From an uncultured Pseudomonadota bacterium (GTDB taxonomy: Bacteria > Desulfobacterota > Desulfobacteria > Desulfobacterales > Desulfobacteraceae): a DNA stretch of 46,072 bases. Positions within the stretch are counted from its first letter, which is position 1, and every line of letters starts with the position of its first letter. Under the pieces are notes generated by a model that worked only from the letters and a program-made list of their open reading frames with translations, did no database searches and had not been told where the DNA came from. Both the position numbers and the translations under genes were made by a program. The stretch lies in NCBI GenBank assembly GCA_937880875.1, contig CALGRI010000196.1, positions 1-46,072 on the forward strand, in the 5' to 3' direction. Below, in pieces: positions 16,004 through 36,797 of the stretch.

Positions 16004-16267
16004 ATGGCAGTAGATACCAATAAGATGTCAGGTGCCGAAAGTCTGCGTAAAACCAGAACCTATGGTAAATTTAGATGCCATAATCCAACCTGTATGGGCA
16101 GGCTGGAACCTAAGCCGGGTGACAAACATGTGAAATGTCCGGTTTGTACCTGTGAATTCCGTGTTGCATGGATTCGGCCTGATTTTCCAAGAATCCGCGG
16201 ACCTGTCTGGGAAGTAAATAAAAAACTTGCCGATGCAGCATTCAAAAAAAAGATGGAGGGTAAATAA
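16004..16267 (+). CDS. Small zinc-ribbon protein of the aldehyde oxidoreductase operon
   Basis: This 87-aa protein follows a strong AAAGGAGGG ribosome site. It carries a CHNPTC motif and a CPVCTC motif about 20 residues later, enough for one zinc ribbon (about residues 25-55); the remainder is basic and lacks a signal peptide. It is the first gene of the AOR operon, and the ribosome site of the AOR gene lies inside its 3' end, so the two are coupled. It may be an accessory or maturation factor, or a regulator of the enzyme. I do not recognise a named family. Confidence 0.78.
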   Translation: MAVDTNKMSGAESLRKTRTYGKFRCHNPTCMGRLEPKPGDKHVKCPVCTCEFRVAWIRPDFPRIRGPVWEVNKKLADAAFKKKMEGK

Positions 16268-16268
16268 T

Positions 16269-18209
16269 ATGGCATTGGATAGAAAAATAGCATATATTGA
16301 CCTTACCACCGGAGAGATAGAGGTCAAAACCATTCCTCTTGATGTCAGAAGAAAATTCCTTGGTGGTCGGGGTCTGGATGCTTATCTGTTACTGAATCAT
16401 TCTAAAAAAGGGTGTGATCCGCTGGGACCTGATAATCCGCTCATCGTCAGCGGCGGCATCCTGACGGCTACCTGCGCATCTGCAACAGCAAGAACCCATG
16501 TCATGGCAAAATCCCCCTTAACAGGGCTTCTGGGTTCATGTAACATGGGCGGGTTTTTTGCGCCTGAAATGGCCTGGGCCGGGTTTCATCACCTTGTCAT
16601 CAAAGGAAAAGCTGAAAAACCCTGTTATATTTATATTCACAACGGGAAAATCCAAATTCGTGATGGAGAAAATATCTGGGGCAAAACCACCACAGATACC
16701 CAATGGGCCATCAGGGATGAGTTGAATGATCAGGAAGTAAAATCACTTGTGATAGGACCTGCCGGTGAAAATCTTGTGGCATTTGCAAATGTCATGACAG
16801 GGATTAAAAATGCCGGAGGCAGAACGGGAATGGGTGCGGTTATGGGCTCCAAAAACCTTAAGGCAATCGCCTGCAGAGGAACCATGGATATTAAGATTGC
16901 CCATCCTGTTGAAGCCCTTGAATACAACAAACGCTTTATCGACCAGATTACATCTGCAAAAGTGAACAAGACCCAGGGAACCCTGGGAACACCTTTTATC
17001 TGGGGTGCAACCAATTCATGGGGCGGGGTAAGAACCCGTAATTTTCAATACAACCAGTGTGAATATGCAGATGATATAGAACCTGAAGCAATTGATGAGA
17101 TCTGTGAAGATACAATGGGACCCTATCACATGTCAGGCTGTTTTGGATGCCAGGTTCATTGCCGTGCCCAGTACAGAATTCCTTCCGGGCCCTTAAAAGG
17201 AAAATACGACGAAGGCCCTGAGTATACATCCCAGGGAGCATTTGGCTCTGAAACAGATACGCCAAGGGCTGAAACTGTTCTTGTTGGGAACCATCTTGTT
17301 GATCAATATGGCATGGATAACCTTGAAACAGGGTCCTTGATTTCATGGGCAATGGAACTTTACGAATTAGGTATTCTTACCAGCAAAGATACAGACGGAC
17401 TTGATCTTAAATTCGGCAATGATGAAGCTGTTCTTGAAATGATTGAGCGCATCTGCTTTAGAAAAGGTAAAGTTGCCGATGCCCTTGCAAATGGTGGTAT
17501 TCCAGCTTCTAAAACCTTTGGCAAAGATTCTTTTAATTATCTTATCCAGGTAAAAGGAATGAGCAACCTTCATTCCGATGAAAGGGCTACCCCGGCACTG
17601 GCATTGAATATTGCAACCTCTTCCAGGGGATCTGACCATTTAAGAAGTCGTCCGGCAATTGATCTTTATCATTTGCCTGTGGATGTTTTGAGAAAAATAT
17701 ACTCCAGTCCCATCCCCTATGAAGGGCCTCTGTCTTCCGAGCATACCGAATACATTGGAAAACCCTGGCAGGTCTTCTGGCAGGAAAACTGCTATATGGG
17801 TGTAGACTGTCTGGGTATCTGCAAATACCATACAACCTTTCTGGGTGCGACATTGCCAAACTTTGAAGACTGGCCCAAAGTGTTGTATTACAACACCGGG
17901 CTTGAATTTACCCCGGAAGAGCTGTGGGATATTGCAGAGCGCTGCAACATGGTGGAAAGACTTTTCAACTTAAGGGAAGGTTTGACAAGAGATGACCTTG
18001 AAAAAGGCGATATGATCAACCATCGTTATTTTGACGAGCCCACAAGAAGGGGTGCTCCTGATGTCGTGGGAACAACCATTGACAGGGAAAAATTCAGCAA
18101 AATGATTGATGAATTTTATGCGCACAAAGGTCTTGATCAAAAAGGCAAACCTACAACAAAAACCCTGAAACGGCTTGGGCTGGCAAATGAGCCATCCCAT
18201 ATGCTGTAA
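16269..18209 (+). CDS. Aldehyde:ferredoxin oxidoreductase, tungsten-pterin catalytic subunit
   Basis: This is a 646-aa AOR-family enzyme. Start ATG 16269 has GGAGGG nine bases upstream; longer frames to 16227 overlap the previous gene. The N-terminal domain has the family signature FLGGRGLDAYLL and SPLTGLLGSCNMGGFF. The 4Fe-4S ligands are C291, C294 and C298 (CFGCQVHC) and C518, within the DCLGIC tungstopterin-binding motif. AORs oxidise aldehydes to carboxylates with ferredoxin, or the reverse, using a W-bispyranopterin. With the adjacent polyferredoxin it resembles the two-subunit AORs of aromatic-degrading anaerobes. It could detoxify or oxidise aldehydes, or reduce acids; the substrate is unknown. 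Confidence 0.93.
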   Translation: MALDRKIAYIDLTTGEIEVKTIPLDVRRKFLGGRGLDAYLLLNHSKKGCDPLGPDNPLIVSGGILTATCASATARTHVMAKSPLTGLLGSCNMGGFFAPEMAWAGFHHLVIKGKAEKPCYIYIHNGKIQIRDGENIWGKTTTDTQWAIRDELNDQEVKSLVIGPAGENLVAFANVMTGIKNAGGRTGMGAVMGSKNLKAIACRGTMDIKIAHPVEALEYNKRFIDQITSAKVNKTQGTLGTPFIWGATNSWGGVRTRNFQYNQCEYADDIEPEAIDEICEDTMGPYHMSGCFGCQVHCRAQYRIPSGPLKGKYDEGPEYTSQGAFGSETDTPRAETVLVGNHLVDQYGMDNLETGSLISWAMELYELGILTSKDTDGLDLKFGNDEAVLEMIERICFRKGKVADALANGGIPASKTFGKDSFNYLIQVKGMSNLHSDERATPALALNIATSSRGSDHLRSRPAIDLYHLPVDVLRKIYSSPIPYEGPLSSEHTEYIGKPWQVFWQENCYMGVDCLGICKYHTTFLGATLPNFEDWPKVLYYNTGLEFTPEELWDIAERCNMVERLFNLREGLTRDDLEKGDMINHRYFDEPTRRGAPDVVGTTIDREKFSKMIDEFYAHKGLDQKGKPTTKTLKRLGLANEPSHML

Positions 18210-18229
18210 AAGTTTGAAAGGAGGATATC

Positions 18230-18730
18230 ATGGAAACAAAGGATAAGGTCCTTATGATAAACCCTGAAAAATGTACAGGGTGCAGATTGTGTGAACTGGT
18301 ATGTGCGGTAAAGCATGACGGGGTTTCCAACCCTGCCAGAAGCCGCATAAGAGTAATGAAATGGGAAATGGACGGGGTGTACATCCCCATGGCCTGCCAG
18401 CAGTGCCAGGATGCCCCCTGCATGGGTGTATGTCCTGCCAATGCGATTTCCCGCAATGATGAACTTAACAAAATTGAAGTGGATTATGACAAATGTATCG
18501 GCTGCCGCTCATGCGTGGCAGTCTGTCCCTTTGGCGCCATGGGATTTAACTCCATTGACAGAAAAGTGTTCAAATGTGACCTGTGTGATGGAGACCCCCA
18601 GTGTGTAAGATTCTGTGAAGTTCAATGTGTTGAATATGTGGATGCAGATGATGTGGCCATTCTCAAAAAACAGGATGCTGCAAAAAAACTGTATGCCACA
18701 AGTCATAAAATTGCTCTGAAAGAAGCTTAA
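18230..18730 (+). CDS. Four-cluster 4Fe-4S ferredoxin subunit (HycB/AOR-associated)
   Basis: This 166-aa electron-transfer protein has sixteen clustered Cys in four sets: CTGCRLCELVC, CQQCQDAPCMGVCP, CIGCRSCVAVCP and CDLCDGDPQCVRFC. The arrangement equals that of HycB/DmsB-type subunits. There is no signal peptide, so it is cytosolic. It starts 20 bp after the AOR stop with a GGAGG site and should carry electrons between the tungsten enzyme and ferredoxin or another partner. A strong hairpin terminator follows, so the zinc ribbon, AOR and this gene form one operon. Confidence 0.92.
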   Translation: METKDKVLMINPEKCTGCRLCELVCAVKHDGVSNPARSRIRVMKWEMDGVYIPMACQQCQDAPCMGVCPANAISRNDELNKIEVDYDKCIGCRSCVAVCPFGAMGFNSIDRKVFKCDLCDGDPQCVRFCEVQCVEYVDADDVAILKKQDAAKKLYATSHKIALKEA

Positions 18731-18766
18731 GTTTATAAAATCTTTATAAAGGATTTAAGTTAGTTT

Positions 18767-18810
18767 ATACTGCACGTTCCAGGATTAGCCCGGAACGTGC
18801 AGTATTGTTT
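18767..18810 (+). terminator. Rho-independent terminator of the AOR operon
   Basis: A perfect 14-bp stem (ATACTGCACGTTCC at 18767-18780 with its complement at 18792-18805) closes an 11-nt loop and is followed by TGTTTT. It lies 36 bp after the ferredoxin stop and before the radical SAM gene. Confidence 0.9.
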
Positions 18811-18828
18811 TAAGGGGTGTTGTAAAAC

Positions 18829-20247
18829 ATGAACGGAAAAATAAAGAAACTGGTGATCCTGACAGGCTATTTTAAAGGGGAGTCCTATGGGCTTTTAGGC
18901 CCCCAGATGGCAGCCACCATCATCAATAGTCATACTGATTTTAATGCCATTGTTGTGGGGGTGACCAATGAGAATGATATAAAGGATGTCAAAACGGCTT
19001 TAAATCACTATTTTGGAGACCAGCAAAAGATTCTGGGCTTTTCATCCCTTGGGGGAAGATCAGACCTGTTTGATCTTGCCAGGGAATTAAAGGAACAGGG
19101 TGCAATCACCATTCTTGCCGGTTCCCAGGCAGGGCCTGATTATAAAGGAGAGAAGGGCTGGCAATCCTATCCTCACCGCTTTAAGGGAGTTTCTGATTGT
19201 TTTTCCTTTGCCCTGCACGGCCCTGCCCAGCAGATTATCCCCATTCTATCATCTGGTTTTGATAAAGACATATCAAAATTTGACGGGGTGTTATGCAAAG
19301 ATGCCAATGGCCGGATCAATGAAACCCCTTCCACTGATTGGGATGACACCTTTCTTTCAGCGGTTGACTGGCAAACTTTGTATCTGTTAAATGGTTCTGT
19401 CTTTGAACCCATAACCATCACAACGGCCCAGGTATTGCAGCAGATCGGATGCCAGCATGCAGCAAAAGAAAGGCAAGTCTTCATTGATTATCCAGCAGGG
19501 CTTGTTAAAAATGGGCCTCAACCTTCTTATATAACCATTTGTCAGAAAGGATGCAGCTTTTGTGATGTGGCAGTTGATAAAGGGTATTTCGGAGGTGTGG
19601 GTGAGGCTGCATTTAAAAAACAATTATGGTGTTTGCCAGAGGATGGTGACGGCAGGAAAATACCCTTTGAGCTGATTAATGAAAGTCCTCTGTTTAAACT
19701 ATCACAGCTTTTCAAGCTGGCAGATGAACTGGCCATTGAATTATCCCAGATCAATCTGACCCTGCGGGCAGACTATCTCATAAAGGGTCTCAAACCGCTG
19801 GCAGCAGCATTGGACATCGCCACAAAGAAAAATGTCCGGATTTTATTGTCCTCCATTGGATTTGAATCCTTTGATGATTCGATTTTAAAGAACCTGAACA
19901 AAGGACTTGATCGACAGACAAACCTGGATGCCATCAAGGCTATAAGGCAGTTAAAATCAAGATACCCCGCCAATCTGGGCTACCTGAAACAGGAGGGGGC
20001 TAATCATGGGTTTATCCATCCAACACCCTGGGACAACCCACAGATTTCCCATGAAATTAATAAAACCATCAGCATGTACCAATTGTCACACGATATTTTA
20101 CCCCATCACAGCACGCCCTTGATCATCCACCATGCTTCCGGTCTTGCCGACTGGATAAGGCAGATTGAATTAAAGGAAAATATCCAGTTCCAGCGAGTCG
20201 GTACCACCATTGGGTGGTGGCAGACAAAGGAAGAGTTTTTGTTATGA
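18829..20247 (+). CDS. Radical SAM protein with B12-binding-like N-terminal domain
   Basis: The protein has 472 aa. The N-terminal part (about 1-140) has the alternating beta-alpha pattern of a cobalamin-binding Rossmann domain (VILTGYFKGESYGLLGPQMAA; LGFSSLGGRSDLFDLARELK; ITILAGSQAG) but lacks the DxHxxG motif, as in many B12-radical SAM proteins that bind B12 base-off without His. The radical SAM CxxxCxxC is C238, C242 and C245 (ICQKGCSFCDV). The C-terminus has no extra Cys cluster. Transcription is probably separate from the AOR operon because of the terminator between them. The reaction is unknown: methyl transfer, ring contraction or another radical rearrangement are all possible. Confidence 0.8.
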   Translation: MNGKIKKLVILTGYFKGESYGLLGPQMAATIINSHTDFNAIVVGVTNENDIKDVKTALNHYFGDQQKILGFSSLGGRSDLFDLARELKEQGAITILAGSQAGPDYKGEKGWQSYPHRFKGVSDCFSFALHGPAQQIIPILSSGFDKDISKFDGVLCKDANGRINETPSTDWDDTFLSAVDWQTLYLLNGSVFEPITITTAQVLQQIGCQHAAKERQVFIDYPAGLVKNGPQPSYITICQKGCSFCDVAVDKGYFGGVGEAAFKKQLWCLPEDGDGRKIPFELINESPLFKLSQLFKLADELAIELSQINLTLRADYLIKGLKPLAAALDIATKKNVRILLSSIGFESFDDSILKNLNKGLDRQTNLDAIKAIRQLKSRYPANLGYLKQEGANHGFIHPTPWDNPQISHEINKTISMYQLSHDILPHHSTPLIIHHASGLADWIRQIELKENIQFQRVGTTIGWWQTKEEFLL

Positions 20248-20391: not shown

Positions 20392-21396
20392 TTATGTGTG
20401 CGAATCTGGCACCAGGACAATTTTTGCCGCAGCAGTTAACCCTTTGTCAAGATCGGAAAAGGCTTGAGCCCCTTGGGAAAGGGGGCGGGTTTCAACCCAT
20501 CTGAGATCTCCCAGCAAACCTGCATCAAGAGCCTTTACTGCAGCCCTTACATCAGCAGCTGTATAGCAATAAACCCCGATCAATGTGACTTCAAAAAGGG
20601 TGAGTTTTCGAATATCCAGGCCGTCTTGTGAATCCATCAAGCCTATATGTACCAGTGTCCCGCCTGGTTTTACGGCTGACATGGCAAGCTTTCGGGTTTT
20701 ACCTCCCCCAACACAGTCGATTACCAGGTCAAAGCTATCGTTTTGAAAGGTGGAATCTGTTATAGGGTTGAAGACTTGGCATCCAATATGCTCAGCCGCA
20801 GATTTTCCTCTAAGATCATTGGTTTCAGCTAAAAGGATATCAAAACACCCATATCCTCTCAACAGGAGGGCCGCCAGCATGCCGATAGCACCACCACCGA
20901 TGACCATAATCTTTAGCTCTGCAAGGGGGCGGGGAGATTTGATTCTGGCCAGGTTTAAGGCATGAATGGCAGTAGCTGTTGGTTCAGCAAGACTTGCATT
21001 AACTGAACTCAGGGTTTCAGGAAGTGCAACAAGGTTTCTGGTTGGTATTTTGACATACTCTGCATAAGCACCTGCCAGCCGCATGCCAATCAGTTCTCTT
21101 TGGTCACAGAGGTTTGAAAATCCTGTGTCACAATATTGGCAGGCACAGCAGGTAATTAAAGGGTTGATCACAGCACGGCTGCCTTCTTGAGTGCCCGATG
21201 CAATAGTGCCTGCTACTTCGTGACCCAGAATCAGCGGGGGAACCCGCCGTGGGTCAATGCCATGGTAAGCATGCATATCAGAACCGCAGATGCCTGTGGC
21301 TTCTATTTTTAATAAAACTTCGCCGGGATCAAGAACCGGATCTGGCTCTTCCCGGTAAACGATTTCATTGGTATCCGTGTATACGAGTGCTTTCAT
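20392..21396 (-). CDS. Zinc-dependent MDR dehydrogenase (HpsO/HpsP-position)
   Basis: This is a 334-aa zinc alcohol dehydrogenase of the sorbitol/threonine dehydrogenase type. The N-terminal GroES-like domain has the catalytic-zinc motif TGICGSDMHAYHG and GHEVAG, and a structural-zinc cluster CCACQYCDTGFSNLC. The Rossmann motif is VIGGGAIGMLAA. It is the last gene of the long minus-strand sulfonate locus. In known DHPS-degrading bacteria two dehydrogenases (HpsO, HpsP) interconvert the enantiomers of dihydroxypropanesulfonate through the 2-keto form. This gene and the SDR upstream fill those two positions. That role is an inference from context; the enzyme class is firm. Confidence 0.85.
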   Translation of the reverse strand: MKALVYTDTNEIVYREEPDPVLDPGEVLLKIEATGICGSDMHAYHGIDPRRVPPLILGHEVAGTIASGTQEGSRAVINPLITCCACQYCDTGFSNLCDQRELIGMRLAGAYAEYVKIPTRNLVALPETLSSVNASLAEPTATAIHALNLARIKSPRPLAELKIMVIGGGAIGMLAALLLRGYGCFDILLAETNDLRGKSAAEHIGCQVFNPITDSTFQNDSFDLVIDCVGGGKTRKLAMSAVKPGGTLVHIGLMDSQDGLDIRKLTLFEVTLIGVYCYTAADVRAAVKALDAGLLGDLRWVETRPLSQGAQAFSDLDKGLTAAAKIVLVPDSHT

Positions 21397-21475
21397 AATA
21401 TAGCCTTTTTTTCAAATCTATGACTGTTGATAATGCCGGGGGTTTCATATGTTCCCGCAAATTTTAAACATTGGC

Positions 21476-21504
21476 AGTCCCCCCCGGCAAAACCAGGGGG
21501 GACT
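21476..21504 (-). terminator. GC-rich hairpin between SDR and MDR genes
   Basis: A 9-bp stem AGTCCCCCC / GGGGGGACT with an 11-nt loop lies 26 bp after the SDR stop on the minus strand. No clean T-tract follows, so it may reduce rather than stop read-through into the MDR gene. Confidence 0.55.
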
Positions 21505-21529
21505 ATCCATAATAGTTAATTGTTGGGCT

Positions 21530-22312
21530 CTATTTTGCAGTCCAGCCGCCATCCAGATAAATAGTTTGTCCGGTAATATAATCAGAGGCTGGGGATGCTA
21601 AAAAGATGGCAACCCCTTTTAAGTCATCCAAAACCCCGTTCCGCCCGATGATGGTCTGCCGGGCTAAAGCTTCAATCACATCATTCTGCTTATACAGGTC
21701 CTGGGTCAGGCCGGTTTTGAAAAAACCAGGGCCAATGGCATTACAGGTAATCCCGCTCTGGTCCCTTGACCAGGCTTCGGCCATGGCCCGTGTAAGCTGC
21801 ATCACCCCACCTTTGGATGCTCCATAGGGAACACTGTTGGGAAATGCACGTTCAGATTGAAGTGAGGCAATATTAATGATTTTCCCCCATCCTTTTTCCT
21901 GCATACCGCCAATAAGGTGCCGGGCCAAAAAGAAGGGGGCTTTTAAATTAATATCAATTTGTTTGTTCCAGCTTTCAGAGCTGATTTCGTCCCAGGGCTG
22001 GCGCAGGTTTATACCTGCTGCATTGACCAGAATATCCGGGGCACCAAAAAAAGAAGCCGATTGTTTGGCTGTCTGCGCCAGGGCATCCATGTCGGAAACA
22101 TCACAGGTCAGAAAGGCGGCTTTTCCCCCTATATTTTCAACATCCAGGACAGCTTGTTTTAATGCCTCCTCTTCGCCGGGCAGGGCAACATGAACCACAG
22201 CAGCTCCGGCTTCGGCAAGGCAGAACGCAATGGCCCTGCCAATTCCAGAACTTCCTCCGGTAACAAGGGCCACATGGCCGGTTATACCAAATAATAGATC
22301 AATGCATTTCAT
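21530..22312 (-). CDS. Short-chain dehydrogenase/reductase (HpsO/HpsP-position)
   Basis: This is a 260-aa classical SDR with cofactor motif TGGSSGIGRAIA, NAAGI, the active-site Ser in NIASLQSE and YGASKGG (Tyr-x3-Lys). I start it at ATG 22312, which lies five bases after the HisD-family stop behind GGAG; the longer frame from 22336 overlaps that gene. The tight spacing shows co-transcription with the HpsN-like gene. By context it should oxidise or reduce the secondary alcohol of dihydroxypropanesulfonate or sulfolactate, providing one half of an enantiomer-inverting pair with the zinc dehydrogenase downstream. Sequence alone cannot separate this from sugar-alcohol SDRs. Confidence 0.87.
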   Translation of the reverse strand: MKCIDLLFGITGHVALVTGGSSGIGRAIAFCLAEAGAAVVHVALPGEEEALKQAVLDVENIGGKAAFLTCDVSDMDALAQTAKQSASFFGAPDILVNAAGINLRQPWDEISSESWNKQIDINLKAPFFLARHLIGGMQEKGWGKIINIASLQSERAFPNSVPYGASKGGVMQLTRAMAEAWSRDQSGITCNAIGPGFFKTGLTQDLYKQNDVIEALARQTIIGRNGVLDDLKGVAIFLASPASDYITGQTIYLDGGWTAK

Positions 22313-22316
22313 CGTA

Positions 22317-23639
<1,323 letters not shown>

Positions 23640-23732
23640 TTAAAAATTAAAACACCTGTTGCGTTGTCTTTATATTAAAGGTTCTTTGATAACTAAATTA
23701 GTATAATTATATTAACAATATTTGTTTATAAT

Positions 23733-23764
23733 ACAGCTTTTTCCAGGGTGCTGTTAAAAGCTGT
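23733..23764 (-). terminator. Intercistronic hairpin after the TRAP large-subunit gene
   Basis: The arms ACAGCTTTT (23733-23741) and AAAAGCTGT (23756-23764) pair over nine bases with a 14-nt loop, touching the stop codon of the DctM-type gene. Without a long T-tract it is more likely a processing or attenuation stem than a full stop. Confidence 0.4.
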
Positions 23765-25071
23765 TACAAAAGCCAGAGCGTAATGCCCGGCACCAGCATT
23801 AAAAAGATAACGACGACCAGCATGCTGAAAACAAAATAAATAGCATGCCGGGAAATGGATAAAACCGGTTCTCCGGCAACACCGGATACCACAAACAGAT
23901 TCAATCCCAAAGGAGGCGTGATAAATCCGATACCCAGAGCGCTGACCATCATGATGCAAAAATGAATATCATTCATGCCGATTTCCTGGGCCAGGGGCAT
24001 TAAAATTGGTGCCAATATAACGATGTTCGGCGTGGTTTCCATGACACAGCCGGCAATAATCAGGATGGCGATCATGCTGAGCATTATCAGATATCTGTTT
24101 TCCGTCATGGAGGTCATGGCATAAACAAAATACTGGGGGACTTCAAGGGCTGCCAGTGTCTGGGCAAAGGGCAGTGACATGGCAATGATGGGGACGATGA
24201 CACCGCTGACCTTGGCAGATGTTTCCAACATTTTAGGCACATCTGAAAGCCTAAGATTTTTTTGGTAAAATCCGATGATTAAGGTTGCAATCACCGCTAC
24301 TGATGCCGATTCGGTCGGGGTAAAAATACCTGAATAGATTCCGCCCAGTATGATAAAAGGGATCAAAAGGGCATACCGTCCGTCCCAGACAGTTCTAAGC
24401 CAATGATGTACATCAAAACTTCCCCTGGAATCTTCGTATCCCTTTATCCGGTTGACCAGAAAGTTTGTGACCATTACAGACATTAATACCAATACCCCTG
24501 GAATGGCTGCTGCCAGAAACAAAGTGGAAGCGGAGATGCCCAGGACAAGGCCAATAATAATATAGGAAATGGAGGGCGGAATCAGAATCCCGGTACAGGC
24601 GCCGGCAGCTACAAGTGCGCAGGCATAGGCTTTGGGATACCCTTTTTCCACCAGACGATCTATGGTAATCCTGCCAATGGCAGCGGCATCGGCTGCATCA
24701 GACCCTGAAATACAGGCAAAAAACCCGCAGCCAAGGACCGTTGAGGTTCCAAGACCGGCCCGCTGCCATCCCATGGTTGCTTCGGCCACATCCAGCAGTT
24801 TGTTGGACAATCCGCTTCTAACCAGCACATCGCCGGTTAAAATAAACAAGGGCACGGCGATCAGGGCAAAGGAGTCAACACCGTCAAACAGGGCCTCTCC
24901 TAAAAGAGTCGCCGGTAAAACCTCGGTGGTCATCAGCATGATGACCGAACCCAGACCGATAACAGCCCAGATCCTTACCCCCAGGAGAATCAATATGACC
25001 ATTCCCAGCAGTGGTCCGTAAAAGTCCCAGCCAAGAGATAGTTCAGCGGTATTCATAAGATGGCTATACAT
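23764..25071 (-). CDS. TRAP transporter large permease (DctM/HpsM-like)
   Basis: This is a 435-aa integral membrane protein with about 12 hydrophobic helices of the TRAP DctM type. The family motifs ALIAVPLFILTGDVLVRSGLS, CGFFACISGSDAADAAAIG and ITPPLGLNLFV are clear. It works with the small subunit and the periplasmic binding protein encoded just upstream in the order P, Q, M. TRAP systems import organic acids with sodium symport. The locus suggests an organosulfonate such as DHPS or sulfolactate as cargo. It starts at ATG 25071 behind AAAAGGA. Confidence 0.93.
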   Translation of the reverse strand: MYSHLMNTAELSLGWDFYGPLLGMVILILLGVRIWAVIGLGSVIMLMTTEVLPATLLGEALFDGVDSFALIAVPLFILTGDVLVRSGLSNKLLDVAEATMGWQRAGLGTSTVLGCGFFACISGSDAADAAAIGRITIDRLVEKGYPKAYACALVAAGACTGILIPPSISYIIIGLVLGISASTLFLAAAIPGVLVLMSVMVTNFLVNRIKGYEDSRGSFDVHHWLRTVWDGRYALLIPFIILGGIYSGIFTPTESASVAVIATLIIGFYQKNLRLSDVPKMLETSAKVSGVIVPIIAMSLPFAQTLAALEVPQYFVYAMTSMTENRYLIMLSMIAILIIAGCVMETTPNIVILAPILMPLAQEIGMNDIHFCIMMVSALGIGFITPPLGLNLFVVSGVAGEPVLSISRHAIYFVFSMLVVVIFLMLVPGITLWLL

Positions 25072-25089
25072 TTTCAGATCCTTTTTTCC

Positions 25090-25611
25090 TTAATCAAACA
25101 GTTTTTTGCCTTCAAAAACAGACCGACCTGCTTTCAGATCACTTAAATCCCTTTTCATGGACTGGAGCAACCGCCAGATGATCATGGTAAATCCCAGTGG
25201 TACTGCAGCAAGAAACCAGGCATGACTGATCCTCAACCCATGGGTAACTGACCCGAAATGAATGGAGTTCAATACCGGTTCCATGGACCAGTAAAGTGCA
25301 ATACAGGCAAGGATCAAGGTAATAATATCGCCAAAAATAAACACGATTGCTTTCCCTTTATTTGGTAGTAAAGGCAGGATAACATCAATCCTGATGTGGG
25401 CCCGCTCCTTAATGGCAGCAGCTGCACCGATCCAGGTGATGTAAATAAACGCGTAACGGGCGATCTCTTCAGACCATATGGAAGAGTAGGAGAGGAAAAA
25501 CCTTCGGAACACCTCCATGAAAATCGTTATGACAACCAAAGTGTATAACGGCAGGGTTAAATATCGTTCACCATTTCGGTCAATTTCTAAAAAAAACGCT
25601 TTAATACCCAT
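25090..25611 (-). CDS. TRAP transporter small permease (DctQ/HpsL-like)
   Basis: This is a 173-aa membrane protein with four TM helices, the normal DctQ size. The helix 2 region WSEEIARYAFIYITWIGAAAAIKERAHIRID is the standard DctQ signature. ATG 25611 is preceded by GGAGGAAG. It lies 18 bp upstream of the large-subunit gene and follows the binding-protein gene after a strong stem-loop. Confidence 0.92.
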   Translation of the reverse strand: MGIKAFFLEIDRNGERYLTLPLYTLVVITIFMEVFRRFFLSYSSIWSEEIARYAFIYITWIGAAAAIKERAHIRIDVILPLLPNKGKAIVFIFGDIITLILACIALYWSMEPVLNSIHFGSVTHGLRISHAWFLAAVPLGFTMIIWRLLQSMKRDLSDLKAGRSVFEGKKLFD

Positions 25612-25692
25612 GAACTTCCTCCTGAAAACACTTTTCTACTCTGTCAATCATTAGTACCATGCCCGGAATATCAAATTGCCTTTAATTTGGCT

Positions 25693-25756
25693 GGCTGTGA
25701 CCGGACGACACCCAGATTTTTTTTAATAAACTGGGTGTTTTCATCCGGGCACAGCC
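25693..25756 (-). repeat. Long intercistronic stem-loop between dctP- and dctQ-type genes
   Basis: The sequence GGCTGTG-A-CCGGA...ACACCCAG pairs with CTGGGTGT...CCGG-G-CACAGCC across an A/T-rich loop, giving about 20 paired bases with a small internal bulge. It follows the binding-protein stop by 15 bp. Such stems commonly protect the upstream mRNA and reduce downstream expression, giving more binding protein than permease. Confidence 0.75.
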
Positions 25757-25770
25757 TCAACCTGATTTGA

Positions 25771-26946
25771 TCAGGCTTTTACGTCATCAACATGGTAACT
25801 GCCTTTTGTGTTGGCAGCCTCTACAAGCTTGTCGAATTTGGATAATGAACCGATGAGTTCCATTTTAATATCATCCCAGGCAGGAAGCTGGGCTCCTGCG
25901 GCCTTGACCCAGGCCTCTTTTTCACTGGGTGTTGGCACATAGAAATTAACACCAAACTTTGTCAGTTCTGACATGGCATAGGCGCGGGCAGCCGGTACTT
26001 TGGCATGGTTCTGTCTCATGGTTACTTCACTGGCATAATCAATCCCGTCCTGAACATCCTGGGGCAGACTTTTAAACCATTTGAGATTGCAGGAATAAAC
26101 CTGGGAATCGGGAACAGCACCGTTGAAAGTAATGCTGGAAAGCACATCCTTGAATCCAAATATCAGCAATGCTTCAACAGAAGGATCAAGGGCATCTGCA
26201 ACACCCTGTTTGATGGCAGATGCAGTTTCACCCCATGCTATGGGTGTCGGGTTTGCGCCTAACAGCCTGTAGAACTGCTGGAGAATATTAGATCCAGGCA
26301 CACGAAATTTAAGTCCCTTCATATCATTCGGGGTTTTAATCGGCCCTTTGATGCCTTTGCGAAGGGCCACAACCCTTGGGTCAATGGTCACATACCAGAG
26401 GGCCTTAAATCCCTTGGCCTCAATTTTGGGATTGATTTCATCCTTCCAGGCCTGGGATGTCACAAGGTTTACAAATTTCTGATTTTCTCCGCACCAATAG
26501 GGGATATTGATAAGATCGGCTGCCGGTGCAAATGGTGCAAAATTGGAAATGGAATGCTGTGCCGCCTGTATGGTGCCGGTCTGAACCTTCTGAACCAGGG
26601 CACTTCCAGCTCCTAGCTGACCTGCCGGCGCGAGTTTGACATATACCTTGCCATTGGTGAAATTCTGGATATTTTCTTTCATATCCAGTTGCATAATGGG
26701 ATAGGTTCTAGAGGCACCAAGGATATAGCCGGTGGCAAGATTCATGGTGTATTTTGCTGCACTTTTCCGCTCTTTTTCCTCATTGCTGACCGTGGCAGCA
26801 TGGGCCTCGGGTGCGCCCACAACCCCTGTTGTCATGGCAATGGCAGCAGCTGTGAATCCGAATTTGGCAGTTAGTTCCATGAAACGTCTACGATCAATTT
26901 TACCCAAACTTTTGATTTCATTTTCGTTATTCATTTCTTTAGACAT
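25771..26946 (-). CDS. TRAP substrate-binding protein with Tat signal (DctP/HpsK-like)
   Basis: This is a 391-aa periplasmic binding protein of the DctP family. The N-terminus carries a twin-arginine signal: DRRRFMELTAKFG followed by a hydrophobic stretch and an AHAA cleavage region near residue 50. Family motifs visible include APAGQLGAGSALVQKVQTGTI and LKFRVPGSNILQQFYRLLGA with the carboxylate-binding Arg, and GVADALDPSVEALL. The SD GGAGG precedes ATG 26946. It captures the substrate for the two downstream permeases. Tat export is seen in some TRAP binding proteins. Substrate (DHPS or sulfolactate) is inferred from the locus. Confidence 0.92.
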   Translation of the reverse strand: MSKEMNNENEIKSLGKIDRRRFMELTAKFGFTAAAIAMTTGVVGAPEAHAATVSNEEKERKSAAKYTMNLATGYILGASRTYPIMQLDMKENIQNFTNGKVYVKLAPAGQLGAGSALVQKVQTGTIQAAQHSISNFAPFAPAADLINIPYWCGENQKFVNLVTSQAWKDEINPKIEAKGFKALWYVTIDPRVVALRKGIKGPIKTPNDMKGLKFRVPGSNILQQFYRLLGANPTPIAWGETASAIKQGVADALDPSVEALLIFGFKDVLSSITFNGAVPDSQVYSCNLKWFKSLPQDVQDGIDYASEVTMRQNHAKVPAARAYAMSELTKFGVNFYVPTPSEKEAWVKAAGAQLPAWDDIKMELIGSLSKFDKLVEAANTKGSYHVDDVKA

Positions 26947-26969
26947 CGCTTACCTCCATTAAATTATGA

Positions 26970-27209
26970 TTATTTATTGTTTTGCTTAGTATTTGACTCG
27001 CGTTGCAAAGCAGCTGCAACAAAAGCTATCGAGGCAAACAGGAGTAGTAAAAACTCACTGACATTCCCAAGATAGAAAACATCCCAGCCCCATTGGATTG
27101 AAGCTTTTCCCAATAAAATATTCAAGAAATAAAGGGCCACTGAGAAGGCAAAAACAAGTAATGTCAAACGTTCACCAGTTGTATAGCTGCTATTTTTCTT
27201 TTTTTCCAT
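26970..27209 (-). CDS. Small two-TM protein of the sulfonate locus
   Basis: This 79-aa protein has two hydrophobic helices (about residues 14-33 and 43-67), a Lys-rich N-terminus (MEKKKNSSY) and a charged C-terminus. It lies between suyB and the TRAP binding-protein gene, 23 bp before the latter, so it is in the operon. A weak AAAGGC site precedes ATG 27209. It may be an accessory subunit of the transporter or a sulfite-related membrane factor. I do not recognise a family. Confidence 0.65.
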   Translation of the reverse strand: MEKKKNSSYTTGERLTLLVFAFSVALYFLNILLGKASIQWGWDVFYLGNVSEFLLLLFASIAFVAAALQRESNTKQNNK

Positions 27210-27260
27210 AACTTAAGCCTTTTATTCTTTTTTTAAATTTATAATAGTATCTTATTTGTT

Positions 27261-28424
27261 TTATGCACTTTCATAAAGCTTGGTAAAAACATATTCCTCA
27301 TGCCCCAGTGCTTCCTGGGCAGTCCGCCTGCCATTGCAGGTCCGAACCAACATTGCAAGCAAATTATCTCCGGATTCATCCAGGGTCATTTCACCCCTTA
27401 GAATACCAGAGCAGTCATAGTCAATATGCTCAGACATATCACCCGCTGTGCGCGGATTGGCTGTCAATTTTATCACAGGTTCGATGGCATTACCAATGAT
27501 GTTGCCCTGGCCTGTAGGAAACAAATGTGCGACAAAACCTGCGGCTGCCCATAAGGTCACTGCCTCGGCTGCAGCACTGGATGAATCCATGTACCAAAGT
27601 CCTGGTCCTGGAGGTGTTACCGCTTTGTCTAAGGCCCCCAAGTAGTTTATCTTTTTACCAATTTTTTGGACGTTACCGAATGCTTTTTCTTCGATGGTGG
27701 TCAGTCCGCCTGCAATGTTACCCTTGGTAGGCTGGCTTCCGGAAAGGTCATCGGTCTTATTGCGGTCAATCATGGCAGCATAGCGATCAAACAGCGCCAT
27801 AAATTGTTCCCCTGCTTCCGGGGTTGCTGCTCTTTCCTTAACGCCCAACTCAGCACCGGTGATTTCACTGGTCTCACCAAAAGAACAGGTTCCGCCCATT
27901 TCAACCAATTTTTCAAATGCATTTCCAACCGTCGGGTTGGAAGCCAGACCGGAAGTGGTATCGGACTCTCCACATTTGGTGGATACCCAGATTTCGCTCA
28001 GGTCACATTCCTGCCTCTGGATTTCACTTGCCCATTGGACATATTCTTTGGCTTTCCAGCTGGCCATTTGAACTGTTTTGATATCCCCATGGCGCTCAAT
28101 GCCAAAACCGGTAACCGGTTTGCCGGTTTTGGCAATACCTTCCACAACCCGGTTGGTCCATTCCGGTTCAATACCGATGACAACAACAGCAGCCACATTG
28201 GGATTGGCACCCGTGCCGATCAGGGTTCTAAAAAAAAGTTCCAGGTCTTCGCCAAACTGTAGACGTCCATAGGCATGGGGAAGAGCCTTGCACCCTTTAA
28301 TATTGTGTGCCACATTTTCACAAGCCGCATTGCTCAGGTCGTCCAAGGGCAGAATCACAACATGATTACGGATGCCAACACGTCCGTTTTCTCTTTTATA
28401 GGCCATTACTTTGGGGTTGCTCAT
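27261..28424 (-). CDS. suyB: (2R)-sulfolactate sulfo-lyase, large subunit SuyB
   Basis: This 387-aa protein belongs to the altronate/galactarate dehydratase C-terminal family. The start [15 protein letters not shown]-type motif, the block [41 protein letters not shown] and [18 protein letters not shown] match my recollection of SuyB proteins rather than sugar-acid dehydratases. With SuyA it eliminates sulfite from (R)-sulfolactate to give pyruvate. Several conserved Cys ([23 protein letters not shown]) could hold iron. The start is ATG 28424, nine bases after AAGGAG; the ATG at 28433 overlaps the suyA stop. The HpsN-like gene in the same locus supports this call. Confidence 0.87.
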
Positions 28425-28426
28425 GA

Positions 28427-28705
28427 TTACCATCTCCTTGTTTTCAAATTTTGAGTGTGAACATGACCGCCTTTTTTGATATCGGCAACAACTCTTCCAA
28501 TATCAGCACCATATTTGATGACGGCTTCGTCAACCTTGAGATCAGTTACAGCCATTTTGTGTCCCAACGGGATATCCACCAGGATTTTTATTTCCATCGG
28601 CTCCTGTGAGTCCATATACAGCCCTTTAGCCGTCTCGCCTGCTTTGATGTCGACAGTGGCAACACCGACACTATCTCCTTTTTCATGGATCAAGAATTGA
28701 ATCAT
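28427..28705 (-). CDS. suyA: (2R)-sulfolactate sulfo-lyase, small subunit SuyA
   Basis: This 92-aa SAF-domain protein corresponds to the small subunit of sulfolactate sulfo-lyase, which in sugar-acid dehydratases is fused as the N-terminal domain. Diagnostic segments are [48 protein letters not shown] and the C-terminal [12 protein letters not shown]. It is the first gene of the operon, with AAGGAG before ATG 28705, and its last codons hold the ribosome site for suyB. A sigma-54 promoter lies about 70 bp upstream. Confidence 0.88.
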
Positions 28706-28775: not shown

Positions 28776-28791
28776 AGCAAATATGATGCCA
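28776..28791 (-). promoter_or_regulatory. Sigma-54 promoter of the suyAB/TRAP/hpsN operon
   Basis: On the minus strand the sequence TGGCAT-CATAT-TTGCT matches the -24/-12 consensus (TGGCAY-N5-TTGCW), with exactly ten bases between GG and GC. The predicted start of transcription is near 28764, about 58 nt upstream of the suyA ATG. A sigma-54 activator gene is divergently encoded next to it. Confidence 0.85.
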
Positions 28792-28867: not shown

Positions 28868-28900
28868 GCCCAATATTGGGCGCTATGCCCAATATTGGGC
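28868..28900. promoter_or_regulatory. Tandem palindromes, candidate enhancer (UAS)
   Basis: Two identical perfect 14-bp palindromes, GCCCAATATTGGGC, lie at 28868-28881 and 28887-28900 with centres 19 bp apart. They are about 100 bp upstream of the sigma-54 promoter and 80 bp upstream of the activator start, the expected position for enhancer-binding protein sites. Confidence 0.75.
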
Positions 28901-28980: not shown

Positions 28981-30531
28981 ATGCAATGGAATCTTGCCAC
29001 CAGGCACCAGATACTTTTAGAAATAACAAATGCCGTAATTTCCAAAACATCAAAACAAGATTTTTTTAATGCCCTTGCAGCAGAACTAAAAAAACATTTT
29101 CCCTGTGACCGCTTGAGTATCAATCTTTATGACAAAAAAGGCCAGTCCCTGCAATACTTTACCATTGCAGACGGGATTGATCCCAAAGGCATTTCAAGTT
29201 TAGAAAAGCGTCCATTTTTGAAAGGTGCTATCGCAAAAATGGCCATACAATCCAGGCAACCCGTAATTATTGATGACCTGTCACGCTATAAGGATATGTT
29301 TTCCATCGGACAAATGGTTAAAGCAGGGTTGATGTCAACCATGGCATTTCCGCTGATTATGCGAAATATTGTTTTTGGGACGCTTCATTTTTCGTTTAAA
29401 ACCGCCCCTCCTAATCTGTCTGAATTATCAGGATTACTCACGGAAGTATCTAAACAGGTGGCCATAGCAGTTGACAATCTGGTGGCCTATAACCGGCTGA
29501 AAAATGAAAAACAGAACCTGGAAAGAGAAAAACGATATTTAATTGGGGCTTCTGAAGATTACAAATCAAAAGATTTCTGTTACACATCTCCTCAAATGAC
29601 TGAAATTATGAATGTGGTTAAGAGAGTTGCAGAAATTGATGCCCCGGTCTTTCTGACGGGTGAAACAGGAACTGGAAAAGATTTTATAGCACGGTTCATA
29701 CATCATATCAGCCCCCGCAAAGATCACATGTTTGTTAAAGTCAATTGTCCGGCTATTCCCCCTACGCTGTTTGAGAGTGAATTGTTCGGTCATGCCAAAG
29801 GAGCGTTTACCGGTGCAGATTCCCAGCGTGTAGGGCGTTTCGAAATGGCTCATATGGGAACAATTTTTCTTGACGAGGTAGGTGAATTACCTGAAAATCA
29901 GCAGGTAAAGTTATTGCAGGTATTACAGGAAAGCCGCTTTGAACGTGTGGGTGACAGCAAGCCCAGAGAAGTCAATTTTCGTTTGATTGCAGCCACAAAT
30001 AGAGATCCTGTAAAAAGTATTCAAGAAGGCAAGTTAAGAAATGATCTATACTACCGGCTTAATATTATTCAAATTCATGTACCTCCTTTGCGGGAAAGGG
30101 TGGGTGATATTCCATTATTAATTGAGCATGTCACGCTCAATGAATCTTATCTCATCCATCAACCCGCTCCTCGATATAGCAAGCAGGCAATTAAGCTTTT
30201 AAATGCATATCATTGGCCTGGAAATGTCAGGGAATTGAAAAATTTTGTCAAACGAATGATAATTCTCAAACCTGGAGAGTTAATAAATCCTCATGACATC
30301 GAAAAAATGATTGAACTCGAAGAACAAACGAATATTGAGAAGAATATTCCCATTAAAACTTTGGCGGAATCCGAACGTATTTCCATTGAACAAGCCCTGA
30401 TTAAATGCAAGGGAATCATTGGGGGTAAAAAAGGGACAGCCCGCCTTTTAGATGTCCCCCGATCTACTCTTCAATATCGGATGAAAAAATATGGCATAAA
30501 ACCTAAGATAACAGTCCAGATGGAGGATTGA
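28981..30531 (+). CDS. Sigma-54-dependent activator, GAF-AAA+-Fis type (sulfonate locus)
   Basis: This 516-aa activator has an N-terminal GAF domain (about 10-170), a short coiled linker (NRLKNEKQNLEREKRY), a sigma-54 AAA+ domain with Walker A GETGTGKD, the sigma-54 contact loop GAFTGAD, Walker B IFLDEVGEL and arginine-finger region, and a C-terminal Fis-type HTH (ARLLDVPRSTLQYRMKKYGI). The start is ATG 28981 with GGAGG six bases upstream; the open frame extending to 28783 runs through regulatory palindromes and is not coding. It is divergent from suyA. The GAF domain probably senses a pathway metabolite such as DHPS or sulfolactate. Confidence 0.92.
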   Translation: MQWNLATRHQILLEITNAVISKTSKQDFFNALAAELKKHFPCDRLSINLYDKKGQSLQYFTIADGIDPKGISSLEKRPFLKGAIAKMAIQSRQPVIIDDLSRYKDMFSIGQMVKAGLMSTMAFPLIMRNIVFGTLHFSFKTAPPNLSELSGLLTEVSKQVAIAVDNLVAYNRLKNEKQNLEREKRYLIGASEDYKSKDFCYTSPQMTEIMNVVKRVAEIDAPVFLTGETGTGKDFIARFIHHISPRKDHMFVKVNCPAIPPTLFESELFGHAKGAFTGADSQRVGRFEMAHMGTIFLDEVGELPENQQVKLLQVLQESRFERVGDSKPREVNFRLIAATNRDPVKSIQEGKLRNDLYYRLNIIQIHVPPLRERVGDIPLLIEHVTLNESYLIHQPAPRYSKQAIKLLNAYHWPGNVRELKNFVKRMIILKPGELINPHDIEKMIELEEQTNIEKNIPIKTLAESERISIEQALIKCKGIIGGKKGTARLLDVPRSTLQYRMKKYGIKPKITVQMED

Positions 30532-32328: not shown

Positions 32329-32520
32329 GGATGAACTCCCTAAGTTTTATTATTTGAAAATTCATTATTTCAGGTTGCAGACAAGATGTAAATATTTTTG
32401 GCGTGTATTTATTCAAACAGTAAAAAATCTTGTATTTGCTTTAAAAAGATAGTTGGTTTAACTTAAAGATAGTTTTTTTATGGTAAATAGCAGTTGAATT
32501 TTTTTCTAAGGATTTTTCAA

Positions 32521-33561
32521 ATGAAATTTTTCAATGATTTTTCAAAGGCATCAAAGGGGTTTGAAAATTGCGTTACAACTATTGATTCCCACACAGAAGG
32601 GGAAACCACACGTCTGGTCGTTAATGGCCTGGGGGATATCAAAGGGAAAACTATGATGGATAAGCTGGATTGGTTTAAATCCCGCTATGATAATATCCGG
32701 TGTCTTTTAACAAAAGAACCCAGAGGGTCCAAAGAAATTCTGGCTGCCGTGCTGACTGAGAATGTAAGCAGGACGGCAAAGTTTGGATTGATTTACATGG
32801 ATGCCAAGCGGTATCCATATCTTTGCGGGCATGCAACCATTGGCGCTGTCGTAACCCTGGCAAGAACAGGCTTTCTATCACTTTCCCAGGGAGAAAATTT
32901 TGTACGGGTGGATACCCCGTCCGGACCAATGGAGGCAAGCGTATTCGTTCATGGGGATAAGATTGATGCTGTGGCGATTAATATGGTGCCCTCCTTTGTT
33001 TATGATACCGGTCAAAAGATTGAAGTGCAGGGGTTTGGAACAATAAAGGTGGATCTTGTATGTACTGGCGGTTTTTTTGCCATGGTGGATTCAACCCAGA
33101 TCCCAATGGAACCGGTTCTGGAAAACAAGGCATTTTTAAGTGATCTGGGCATGAAAATCATTGATGCGGCCAATGAGCAGTTGAGTGTGTCCCATCCTGT
33201 CAGACCGGATGTCAGAACCATTGATGTGACGGAATTCTATGATTCAAAAGATGATAAAGGATGCGCCTCTGGCAGGGGCATGGTAGTTTATGGAGAATCC
33301 CATGTTGACAGGTCTCCCTGTGGGACGGGCACGGCAGCTAAACTGACCCTTCTTCATCATTATGGGAAAATCAAAATGAATCAGAGATATATTAATTACA
33401 GTCCTCTGGGGACTTCTTTTGATGCGATGATTATCAAAAAAGAAAAAATCGGGCCTGTGGACGGGTTTATTGTGCAGATTAAAGGTATGGCATATTTAAC
33501 GGGAGTTCATCATTTTATCATTGAAGATGACGACCCTTTTCAAAAAGGATTTATCATCTAA
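32521..33561 (+). CDS. Proline racemase / hydroxyproline epimerase family protein
   Basis: This is a 346-aa member of the proline racemase family. ATG 32521 has AAGGA about eight bases upstream; the TTG at 32494 is rejected. The N-terminal TTIDSHTEGETTRLVV motif is characteristic. Both active-site positions are Cys: YLCGHATIGA and DRSPCGTGTAA, which fits a racemase or 4-hydroxyproline 2-epimerase rather than the Thr-containing 3-hydroxyproline dehydratases. Its last base is shared with the start codon of the amidohydrolase gene (TAATG), so the two are coupled. Proline-type betaine or imino acid use is possible. Confidence 0.87.
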   Translation: MKFFNDFSKASKGFENCVTTIDSHTEGETTRLVVNGLGDIKGKTMMDKLDWFKSRYDNIRCLLTKEPRGSKEILAAVLTENVSRTAKFGLIYMDAKRYPYLCGHATIGAVVTLARTGFLSLSQGENFVRVDTPSGPMEASVFVHGDKIDAVAINMVPSFVYDTGQKIEVQGFGTIKVDLVCTGGFFAMVDSTQIPMEPVLENKAFLSDLGMKIIDAANEQLSVSHPVRPDVRTIDVTEFYDSKDDKGCASGRGMVVYGESHVDRSPCGTGTAAKLTLLHHYGKIKMNQRYINYSPLGTSFDAMIIKKEKIGPVDGFIVQIKGMAYLTGVHHFIIEDDDPFQKGFII

Positions 33562-35171: not shown

Positions 35172-36567
35172 TGCACCACATATGGCCATGACATATCTCC
35201 AGACGATTTTTGACCGGTCGGCTGATGGTTTGATGATTTGTGATGCCCAGGGGAAAATCTTAAAGCTCAATAAAGCTGCTGAAATTTTAAATGGGGTTAA
35301 GGCATCTGAGGTGCTGGGAAAAGATGTTAGAACCCTTGTAAAAGAAGGACAGATTGACAGGTCAGCCACCCAGGAAGTACTTGAAACAAAACGCCAGGTC
35401 AGTGTAATTCAGACAACACCGCGGTCAGACTACACCTTGCTGGTCACCGGAACCCCGGTTTTTGATGATAACCACAACATTCTTTTTGTTGTTGTAAATG
35501 AACGCGATATTTCTCTTATTGAAAGCATGAGAAAAGAGCTTGCGCTTGTAAGGCAGGAATCTGAAAAAATAAAGGATGAGTTGACGGAGTTAACCCTGCT
35601 TGAATTAAAAGAGAATAATATTGTGGCCCAGAGTGATTCAATGAAACAGACACTAACGCTTGCCTTAAAACTATCTGCTATTAATGCCTCCAATATTCTG
35701 ATCCAGGGAGAATCAGGTACAGGCAAGGGGTTGCTGGCAAAATTTATTCATAAGCATAGTAGCGGAAGTAAGAAGCCGTTTATTCAGATTAATTGTGCAG
35801 CCTTGCCTGAAAACCTTCTGGAAGCAGAATTGTTCGGGTATACAAAGGGAGCATTTACCGGAGCCAGTGAAAAGGGAAGGATCGGATTGTTTGAATTGGC
35901 ATCCGGGGGGACGATTTTCCTTGATGAAATTGGGGAAATGTCCATCGGGGTACAGGCCAAGCTGTTGCAGTGTCTGGATGATCATGAAATTATGCCTATT
36001 GGTGGCACCGTTCCAAAAAAAATAGACTGTTCGATTATTGCCGCCACAAACTTGGATATTGAGACCCGGACATTCAATAAGAAGTTCAGACTGGATCTTT
36101 TTCACAGGCTTAATACCTTTACGCTTTTGATTCCACCATTGAGAAATCGACCCGAGGATATTCTTGAGCTGGTTCGAATCACCCTTAAAAAATACAACAA
36201 ACAATACAATCGCAGAGCACGTATCGGTTACAAGGCTTTTGAGACACTTCAAACTTATGACTTCCCGGGGAATGTCCGGGAACTCATCAATATCATTAAA
36301 CAGGCCATAGTTATGTGTGACAGAAGGTCTTTAGATGATTATCTGATAAAAGCATTAAACAAGACCAAACCCCCTGGAACAAAAAAGGAACCAATGAAAG
36401 AAGGCAGCACTCTTTCGGATAAAATATGGGCAGTTGAAAATGAAATGTTGATACAAGCAGCTATGAAATGCTTTACCACCAGGGAGGCAGCCAGGTTTTT
36501 GGGGATCAGTCAGCCCTCTGTGGTGAGAAAATTTAAAAAGCACGGGATTGCCATTACAAAAAAGTAA
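35161..36567 (+). CDS. Sigma-54-dependent activator, PAS-AAA+-Fis type
   Basis: This 468-aa activator has an N-terminal PAS domain (about 8-115: [26 protein letters not shown]), a short coiled coil, an AAA+ domain with Walker A GESGTGKG, the sigma-54 loop GAFTGAS and Walker [10 protein letters not shown], and a C-terminal Fis HTH ([23 protein letters not shown]). The start is ATG 35161 (GGAAG upstream), overlapping the amidohydrolase gene. It lies directly upstream of the sigma-54 promoter that precedes the ABC transporter operon, so it most likely activates it. It is like the RocR/TyrR-type amino-acid regulators in architecture. The PAS ligand is unknown. Confidence 0.92.
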
Positions 36568-36569
36568 TA

Positions 36570-36655: not shown

Positions 36656-36797
36656 ATAGATAGTCAATTATTTTAAATAGTTGACTGAATATAAGTGATT
36701 TATAAATGAATCAAATTCGATTTTGTTCTTTCTATTCGCGTCCCTATTAATAAAAACTTCTTTTATTTTCAAATATTTATAAAATTATTCAAGGCAC

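Follow-up and report, generated by a model that had tools for sequence, protein, structure and literature searches.

How might a sulfate-reducing bacterium live on 2,3-dihydroxypropane-1-sulfonate (DHPS) with enzymes that are considered aerobic? DHPS is a breakdown product of sulfoquinovose. It has also been described as a globally abundant phytoplankton sulfonate (PMC11131964). The question is raised by a 46,072-nucleotide stretch of DNA (hereafter the window; contig CALGRI010000196.1 of assembly GCA_937880875.1) from an uncultured member of the Desulfobacteraceae. Here the minus strand carries nine genes in the transcription order suyA, suyB, a 79-amino-acid open reading frame (ORF), three TRAP transporter genes, hpsN, hpsO and hpsP (Table 1). 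A first-pass annotation had named SuyA, SuyB, the TRAP transporter, an HpsN-like protein and the SDR and zinc MDR dehydrogenases, all of which lie where it put them; only the 79-aa ORF was absent from its gene list. We consider it very probable that this is a DHPS catabolic operon of a Desulfobacula-type sulfate reducer, that the sulfite it releases is respired by the dissimilatory sulfite reductase (Dsr), and that a divergently encoded sigma-54 activator switches it on.

In the proposed pathway, HpsKLM would import DHPS, HpsO and HpsP would interconvert its enantiomers via the 2-ketone, and HpsN would oxidize R-DHPS to R-sulfolactate at the expense of two NAD+, the stereochemistry being that of the characterized homologs. 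SuyAB would then split sulfolactate into pyruvate and sulfite, and the sulfite would be kept in the cell and reduced to sulfide by DsrAB. As a matter of arithmetic, the conversion of DHPS to sulfolactate yields four electrons (two NADH) and that of pyruvate to acetyl-CoA another two, while the reduction of sulfite to sulfide needs six. Since the electrons balance exactly at six, DHPS should be fermentable to acetate, CO2 and sulfide even where sulfate is absent. The evidence for this scheme includes the identity, residues and tree position of HpsN, the match of the solute receptor to a DHPS receptor, the matches of HpsO, HpsP and SuyAB, the retention of the operon in relatives, and the dsr, apr and sat genes of the host.

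The window HpsN is 64% identical to that of Cupriavidus pinatubonensis and matches the solved structure of the latter (8v35) at E 8e-182 and a second (R)-DHPS dehydrogenase structure (8wwe) at E 7e-138, versus E 6e-76 or weaker for HisD structures. It keeps the sulfonate-binding His126 (in GRFAH), which is Leu both in Escherichia coli HisD and in the host's own HisD, as well as the zinc, catalytic and sulfonate residues Gln248, His251, Glu318, His319, Asp352, Lys353 and His411 (roles as assigned in PMC11382572). In a tree of 89 rows, made by a quick method that gave long-branch warnings and in which both HisD rows sit on long branches, the HpsN family is separate from HisD, and the window protein falls on the HpsN side, as the first-pass annotation had supposed. 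Seven duplicate contigs and 52 of the 72 aerobe loci were dropped before this tree was made; a Polaromonas hisD with a broken reading frame was left out of the trees and residue tables, and one row with an internal stop (L162) was also discarded. The window HpsN belongs to a group of 11 rows, all from sulfate reducers (support 91), where its nearest neighbor is that of Candidatus Desulfobacula maris (94% identity). By analogy with its characterized homologs, it is predicted to be an NAD+-dependent enzyme that oxidizes R-DHPS to R-sulfolactate. The genome encodes three HisD-family proteins: the window HpsN, a true HisD on another contig (C328), which the first-pass annotation had suggested looking for, and a paralog on contig C361 that we treat below.

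The other genes point in the same direction. The solute-binding protein HpsK matches the structure 24gc, entitled 'DHPS TRAP transporter', at E 1.2e-151 (508 bits), the runner-up reaching only 3e-21 (79 bits), and is 58% identical to HpsK of Rhodovulum, in whose TRAP set two of the three proteins are annotated as hpsK and hpsL. Its closest known counterpart is therefore a DHPS receptor, and DHPS binding is predicted. The window SuyB shares 68% of its residues with SuyB of C. pinatubonensis and 66% with that of Paracoccus ferrooxidans, versus 27% with E. coli UxaA and 29% with GarD; this grouping is by pairwise identities, and it agrees with the assignment made in the first pass. SuyB is the sole GD_AH_C match of the genome. 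For SuyA the SAF domain is weak (23.6 bits; cut-off 21), and its identity to C. pinatubonensis SuyA is 45%. The two proteins are predicted to be the separate subunits of an Fe2+-dependent sulfolactate sulfo-lyase releasing sulfite and pyruvate. Their reading frames share 7 bases, and the longest hpsO ORF shares 20 bases with hpsN.

The 79-aa ORF, which gave no match in a Pfam search, probably encodes a membrane protein, to judge from its sequence. Its product is 56% identical to its counterpart in a related genome (L008) and resembles the small ORF preceding the TRAP genes in Sulfitobacter S190 (41% over 53 aa, E 1.6e-8) and that of Leisingera caerulea (50% over 30 aa, E 9e-7). The corresponding ORFs of Rhodovulum and Paracoccus seriniphilus gave no match, so that two of the four aerobe clusters compared have a recognizably similar protein.

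The host was taken for a sulfate reducer in the first pass, and its genome bears this out. One contig (C225) carries dsrA (592 bits; cut-off 393), dsrB (478 bits; cut-off 342) and dsrD (114 bits), and the assembly also contains aprA (940 bits; cut-off 642) and the ATP-sulfurylase gene sat. The suggestion that SuyAB would supply pyruvate along with sulfite for Dsr thus appears right. We found no glycyl-radical DHPS enzyme above the cut-off anywhere in the genome (HpsG 559 and HpfG 483 of 1000); a glycyl-radical DHPS lyase or dehydratase was discarded as an alternative, the single match resembling pyruvate formate-lyase being a trans-4-hydroxyproline dehydratase (1249 bits; cut-off 1100).

To see how widely the operon is kept, we surveyed 389 genomes of the class Desulfobacteria, calling an HpsN of at least 75% identity A-type (DHPS-type) and leaving aside two partial matches to the C361 paralog type (G120 and G311:C405) and some six weak HpsN matches (42-45% identity). 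A-type HpsN occurs in 11 of the 389 genomes (one partial), and we count 12 A-type loci: the window, one from a named collection (L011) and 10 further stretches. Both hpsO and hpsP lie 3' of hpsN in 10 of these 12, the contigs of the other two (L179 and L184) ending inside or before them. All four loci whose sequence reaches 3.6 kb or more upstream of hpsN contain suyA and suyB, and a fifth (L177) has a partial suyB. The whole order (regulator, suyA, suyB, small ORF, TRAP genes, hpsNOP) is intact in another Desulfobacteraceae genome (L008/L178), which argues that the cluster is not a product of chance. SuyB itself is found in 26 of the 389 genomes, 21 of which have no A-type HpsN; either sulfolactate is fed into these from another source or HpsN is lacking from their assemblies. 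One relative (L175) has two DctP and two DctQ matches in its hps operon, as if the transporter had been partly duplicated.

Three other readings deserve consideration. The resemblance might be misleading and the cluster a sugar-acid or histidinol-type catabolic one: NCBIfam does assign the HisD-family protein to hisD and, below cut-off, SuyB to galactarate dehydratase. This we regard as hardly credible in view of the SuyB identities, His126, the true hisD elsewhere in the genome and the 89-row tree, which together rule out histidinol dehydrogenase and UxaA/GarD. It is also improbable that DHPS serves as a carbon source while its sulfite, instead of being respired, leaves the cell or is assimilated. 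Aerobes do dispose of sulfite by oxidation and export. Against this, no gene in the operon has an exporter match (no exporter search was made in the genome at large), whereas two aerobe clusters, those of P. ferrooxidans and Rhodobacteraceae SC52, have annotated sulfate exporters next to them; the host has dsrABD, aprA and sat, and Desulfovibrio sp. DF1 is reported to respire sulfite made by SuyAB (PMC6278857). Somewhat less improbable, although still unlikely, is sulfolactate as the real substrate, with SuyAB and the TRAP transporter serving sulfolactate respiration and HpsNOP adding little, perhaps as in Taurinivorans muris. The suyAB genes do stand first in the operon, and T. muris, with hpsN-dctPQM2-suyAB, is reported to grow with sulfolactate and not with DHPS (PMC10507020). 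However, the solute receptor belongs with the DHPS receptor of known structure, hpsO and hpsP follow hpsN wherever the A-type contigs are long enough, and family matches revealed no slcC/comC-type sulfolactate dehydrogenase among the nine operon genes (no search for one was made in the genome as a whole).

Several observations nevertheless weigh against the DHPS-to-sulfide scheme. The clade of the window HpsN is sister not to Cupriavidus HpsN but to the clade of DegT-linked paralogs (99* for the union). The argument from the missing exporter is weak, as none is annotated in the stretches read around hpsN of C. pinatubonensis, Rhodovulum, L. caerulea or Sulfitobacter either. The host is a fragmented metagenome-assembled genome (528 contigs, 5% contamination) with dsr, apr and sat on contigs other than that of the operon. 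Only five of the 11 genomes with A-type HpsN have SuyB; in the other six the contig breaks off 0.6-2.5 kb upstream of hpsN and does not reach the suyB position (in the window suyB begins 3.6 kb upstream), so that suyB may have been either lost or retained in these. Finally, the route joins known pieces in a combination predicted from genes alone, and the T. muris result with racemic DHPS was negative. We still prefer respiration of DHPS-derived sulfite, for the reasons given above.

The control region is a second conserved feature of the operon. A putative sigma-54 promoter lies ahead of suyA, and its TGG-N10-GC element is present in all four loci compared (the window, L008, L175 and L011). 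A consensus scan of the window gave 34 matches versus 30.8 expected, which is chance level, and the evidence for the promoter is therefore its conservation across loci. Further upstream is an enhancer-like palindrome, two copies of which start 19 bases apart. The exact palindrome occurs in three of the four loci (twice in the window, once each in L008 and L175), at 109 bases upstream of the TGG-N10-GC element in the window, 107 in L008 and 111 in L175; in L011 inspection by eye shows imperfect copies only. The divergent gene encodes a sigma-54 activator with GAF, AAA+ and HTH_8 domains, whose homologs are 73% (L008), 51% (L011) and 50% (L175) identical. It probably starts at 28981, which we prefer because the longer ORF from 28783 would cover both the promoter and the palindromes. 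This activator may bind the twin palindromes and turn the operon on. A conserved sigma-54 promoter with palindromes on such an operon is what is new here, along with the retention of the operon in relatives. We met no published account of sigma-54 regulating an operon of this kind, a point that was looked up specifically only in a single Desulfovibrio vulgaris paper, the available text of which names sulfolactate only in a reference title (PMC4641369).

Table 1. Features of the predicted suy-hps operon and its control region (positions in the window; functions as predicted)
Feature	Position	Strand	Basis or remark
suyA, sulfolactate sulfo-lyase small subunit	28427-28705	-	92 aa
suyB, sulfolactate sulfo-lyase large subunit	27261-28433	-	identity to SuyBs
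79-aa ORF, small protein 5' of hpsK	26970-27209	-	homologous small ORFs
hpsK, TRAP solute-binding protein (DctP)	25771-26946	-	match to DHPS receptor structure
hpsL, TRAP small permease	25090-25611	-	DctQ 101 bits; 55% to Rhodovulum HpsL
hpsM, TRAP large permease	23764-25071	-	DctM 317 bits; 58% to Rhodovulum large permease
hpsN, HisD-family, DHPS 3-dehydrogenase	22317-23615	-	identity, residues, tree
hpsO, SDR-type DHPS 2-dehydrogenase	21530-22336	-	50% to C. pinatubonensis HpsO; adjoins hpsN in relatives
hpsP, zinc MDR-type DHPS 2-dehydrogenase	20392-21396	-	51% to C. pinatubonensis HpsP; conserved order
putative sigma-54 (-24/-12) promoter of the operon, TGGCATCATATTTGCT	28776-28791	-	starts 86 bases ahead of suyA start
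enhancer-like palindrome GCCCAATATTGGGC, first copy	28887-28900	.	starts at -195
enhancer-like palindrome GCCCAATATTGGGC, second copy	28868-28881	.	starts at -176, 19 bases from first
divergent sigma-54 activator (GAF, AAA+, HTH_8)	28981-30531	+	516 aa from ATG behind GGAGG (probable start)

The HpsN paralog belongs to another cluster, on the 8,276-base contig C361 (L088:210-8276), with DctP, DctQ, DctM, a DegT aminotransferase, the cysteate sulfo-lyase CuyA (NCBIfam 523.5 bits; cut-off 450) and an Asp/Glu-type racemase; one further ORF appears to be the start of a GntR-like regulator. The paralog (436 aa) is 58% identical to the window HpsN, and the DegT protein keeps what appears to be the conserved lysine. 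Contamination was considered and set aside, as the GC content (0.44) and tetranucleotide correlation (r 0.97; pieces of the window 0.95-0.98) fit the host and a genome of the same genus holds a cluster of this type that is 94-99% identical. A relative from another family nevertheless reaches r 0.90, and C361 may stem from a near relative.

Cysteinolic acid (2-amino-3-hydroxypropanesulfonate) is the amino analog of DHPS. It is possible, if somewhat less than an even bet, that the C361 cluster degrades this compound. The HpsN paralog would oxidize the amino alcohol to cysteate, as HisD does with histidinol, the racemase would set the enantiomer, CuyA would release pyruvate, ammonium and sulfite, and Dsr would respire the latter; DegT might link cysteinolate to its 2-ketone, the weakest step. 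A crystal structure of C. pinatubonensis HpsN shows the inhibitor L-cysteate in a binding mode like that of sulfolactate (PMC11382572). The substrate is suggested by gene content. A residue signature proved to be no marker of it: S226/V or I228/A257 versus T226/S228/V257 at first seemed to divide hpsO/P-linked from DegT-linked enzymes, but was rejected when all seven alphaproteobacterial hpsNOP enzymes compared also proved to be T-S-V, an eighth (L020) being T-I-A.

Among the 389 genomes this B-type HpsN (31) is commoner than the A-type. The 31 B-type loci (30 and C361), several of them on short stretches, include at least 29 with DegT, at least 24 with CuyA and at least 23 with the racemase, and none with HpsO or HpsP at 42% identity or more. 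Nine further loci (C-type, L166-L174) have HpsN relatives at 64-67% identity, with DegT in seven (in L172 the match covers just a third of it), an HpsP-like gene in one and a CuyA match in none. In a plasmid collection 856 records match DegT; among the 15 listed, 10 have identities of 49% or above, followed by one at 35%. In all 10, which are from Pseudomonadota, DegT lies no more than 6 kb from CuyA, a racemase and an HpsN-family gene (in the Polaromonas record CuyA is unannotated and the hisD frame is broken), whereas the 35% record shows no HpsN-family gene in 15 kb of sequence. The taurine-type ABC receptor gene tauA is annotated in seven of these 10 stretches, a TRAP transporter in one, and an exporter (TauE/SafE, YeiH or 'putative sulfate exporter') in seven. 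Independent origins of the DegT linkage were entertained and not retained, for a 19-row tree needs three changes, only two are forced by starred branches, and losses are possible. P. seriniphilus (L197, L186) has both gene sets, TRAP-hpsNOP-suyAB on p420573 and cuyA-degT-racemase-hisD on p449297. Literature searches, judged by titles and the starts of abstracts, found neither a cysteinolic acid degradation pathway nor such a gene cluster, and the C361 cluster looks more novel than the DHPS operon. If our reading of it is right, it may explain who consumes cysteinolic acid, an osmolyte reported to be abundant in microalgae (PMC8703288).

Some further observations concern HpsN relatives and the neighborhood of the operon. 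Loci L156-L165 encode HpsN-like proteins (46-51% identity) with Met or Leu replacing His126 in all nine that were read and a weakly HpsO-like SDR match nearby in nine of the 10 loci; sulfonates are improbable substrates for them. The window also has genes for an aldehyde:ferredoxin oxidoreductase, a 4Fe-4S protein and a weakly radical-SAM-like protein (16227-20247), which run convergently to the hps operon and do not turn up next to it in relatives. The oxidoreductase (16227-18209) was dismissed as a pathway partner: the gene is in none of the six A-type stretches running more than 4 kb past hpsP (L011, L175, L176, L177, L182 and L183). The DF1 aldehyde:ferredoxin oxidoreductase is described as induced by DHPS and inactive when tested (PMC6278857). 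On the other side of the operon are a proline racemase-family gene, an amidohydrolase and a PAS sigma-54 activator (32494-36813), with a one-mismatch sigma-54 element at 36798, ahead of the next gene at 36886.

How new, then, is the DHPS operon? The first-pass annotation was right about the families, the host and the SuyAB/Dsr route, but it overstated the novelty by holding that all anaerobes described to date rely on DHPS enzymes of the glycyl-radical kind. In Desulfovibrio sp. DF1 (2018), DHPS is reported to be oxidized by DhpA and SlaB, SuyAB cleaving the sulfolactate (PMC6278857), and HpsNOP together with SuyB was noted in Desulfobacteria and Thermodesulfobacteria genomes in 2024 (PMC11382572). 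According to a 2025 paper, the HpsN route has been demonstrated in aerobes only. With DF1, these genomes and T. muris in print, the HpsN branch in an anaerobe is consequently an open test rather than a first sighting. The question can be put directly to organisms that have the whole operon, T. muris, the one hpsN-bearing anaerobe for which we found a growth test in print, having failed on DHPS. If the scheme holds, DHPS that reaches anoxic habitats could feed sulfide production without sulfate.

Among known systems, hpsNOUP-suyAB of C. pinatubonensis (PMC11382572; we read the cluster from plasmid p2 of strain HN-2) has the same HpsN, HpsO, HpsP, SuyA and SuyB, 45-68% identical, but belongs to an aerobe with an MFS importer and a LacI-type regulator, where our host has the HpsKLM TRAP transporter, apparent sigma-54 control, suyAB in first position and Dsr in its genome. 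The clusters of P. seriniphilus p420573 and Rhodobacteraceae SC52 (TRAP-hisD-SDR-MDR-suyAB), like Rhodovulum with its hpsKL, share both the enzymes and the TRAP type, and a small ORF again stands ahead of the TRAP genes, although it is recognizably similar only in Sulfitobacter and Leisingera. These aerobe clusters differ in having suyAB last and LacI/GntR-type regulators where annotated (in SC52 a substrate-binding-domain protein), and SC52 has its sulfate exporter downstream. T. muris likewise combines hpsN, a TRAP transporter and suyAB in a sulfite-respiring anaerobe; its HpsN protein was reported as not detected, and hpsO and hpsP go unmentioned in the text of that report (PMC10507020). 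DF1 likewise respires the sulfite released by SuyAB and ferments DHPS to acetate and sulfide, but does so, as described, with DhpA, SlaB and a candidate ABC transporter, all with locus tags apart from those of suyAB, in place of HpsNOP and HpsKLM (PMC6278857).

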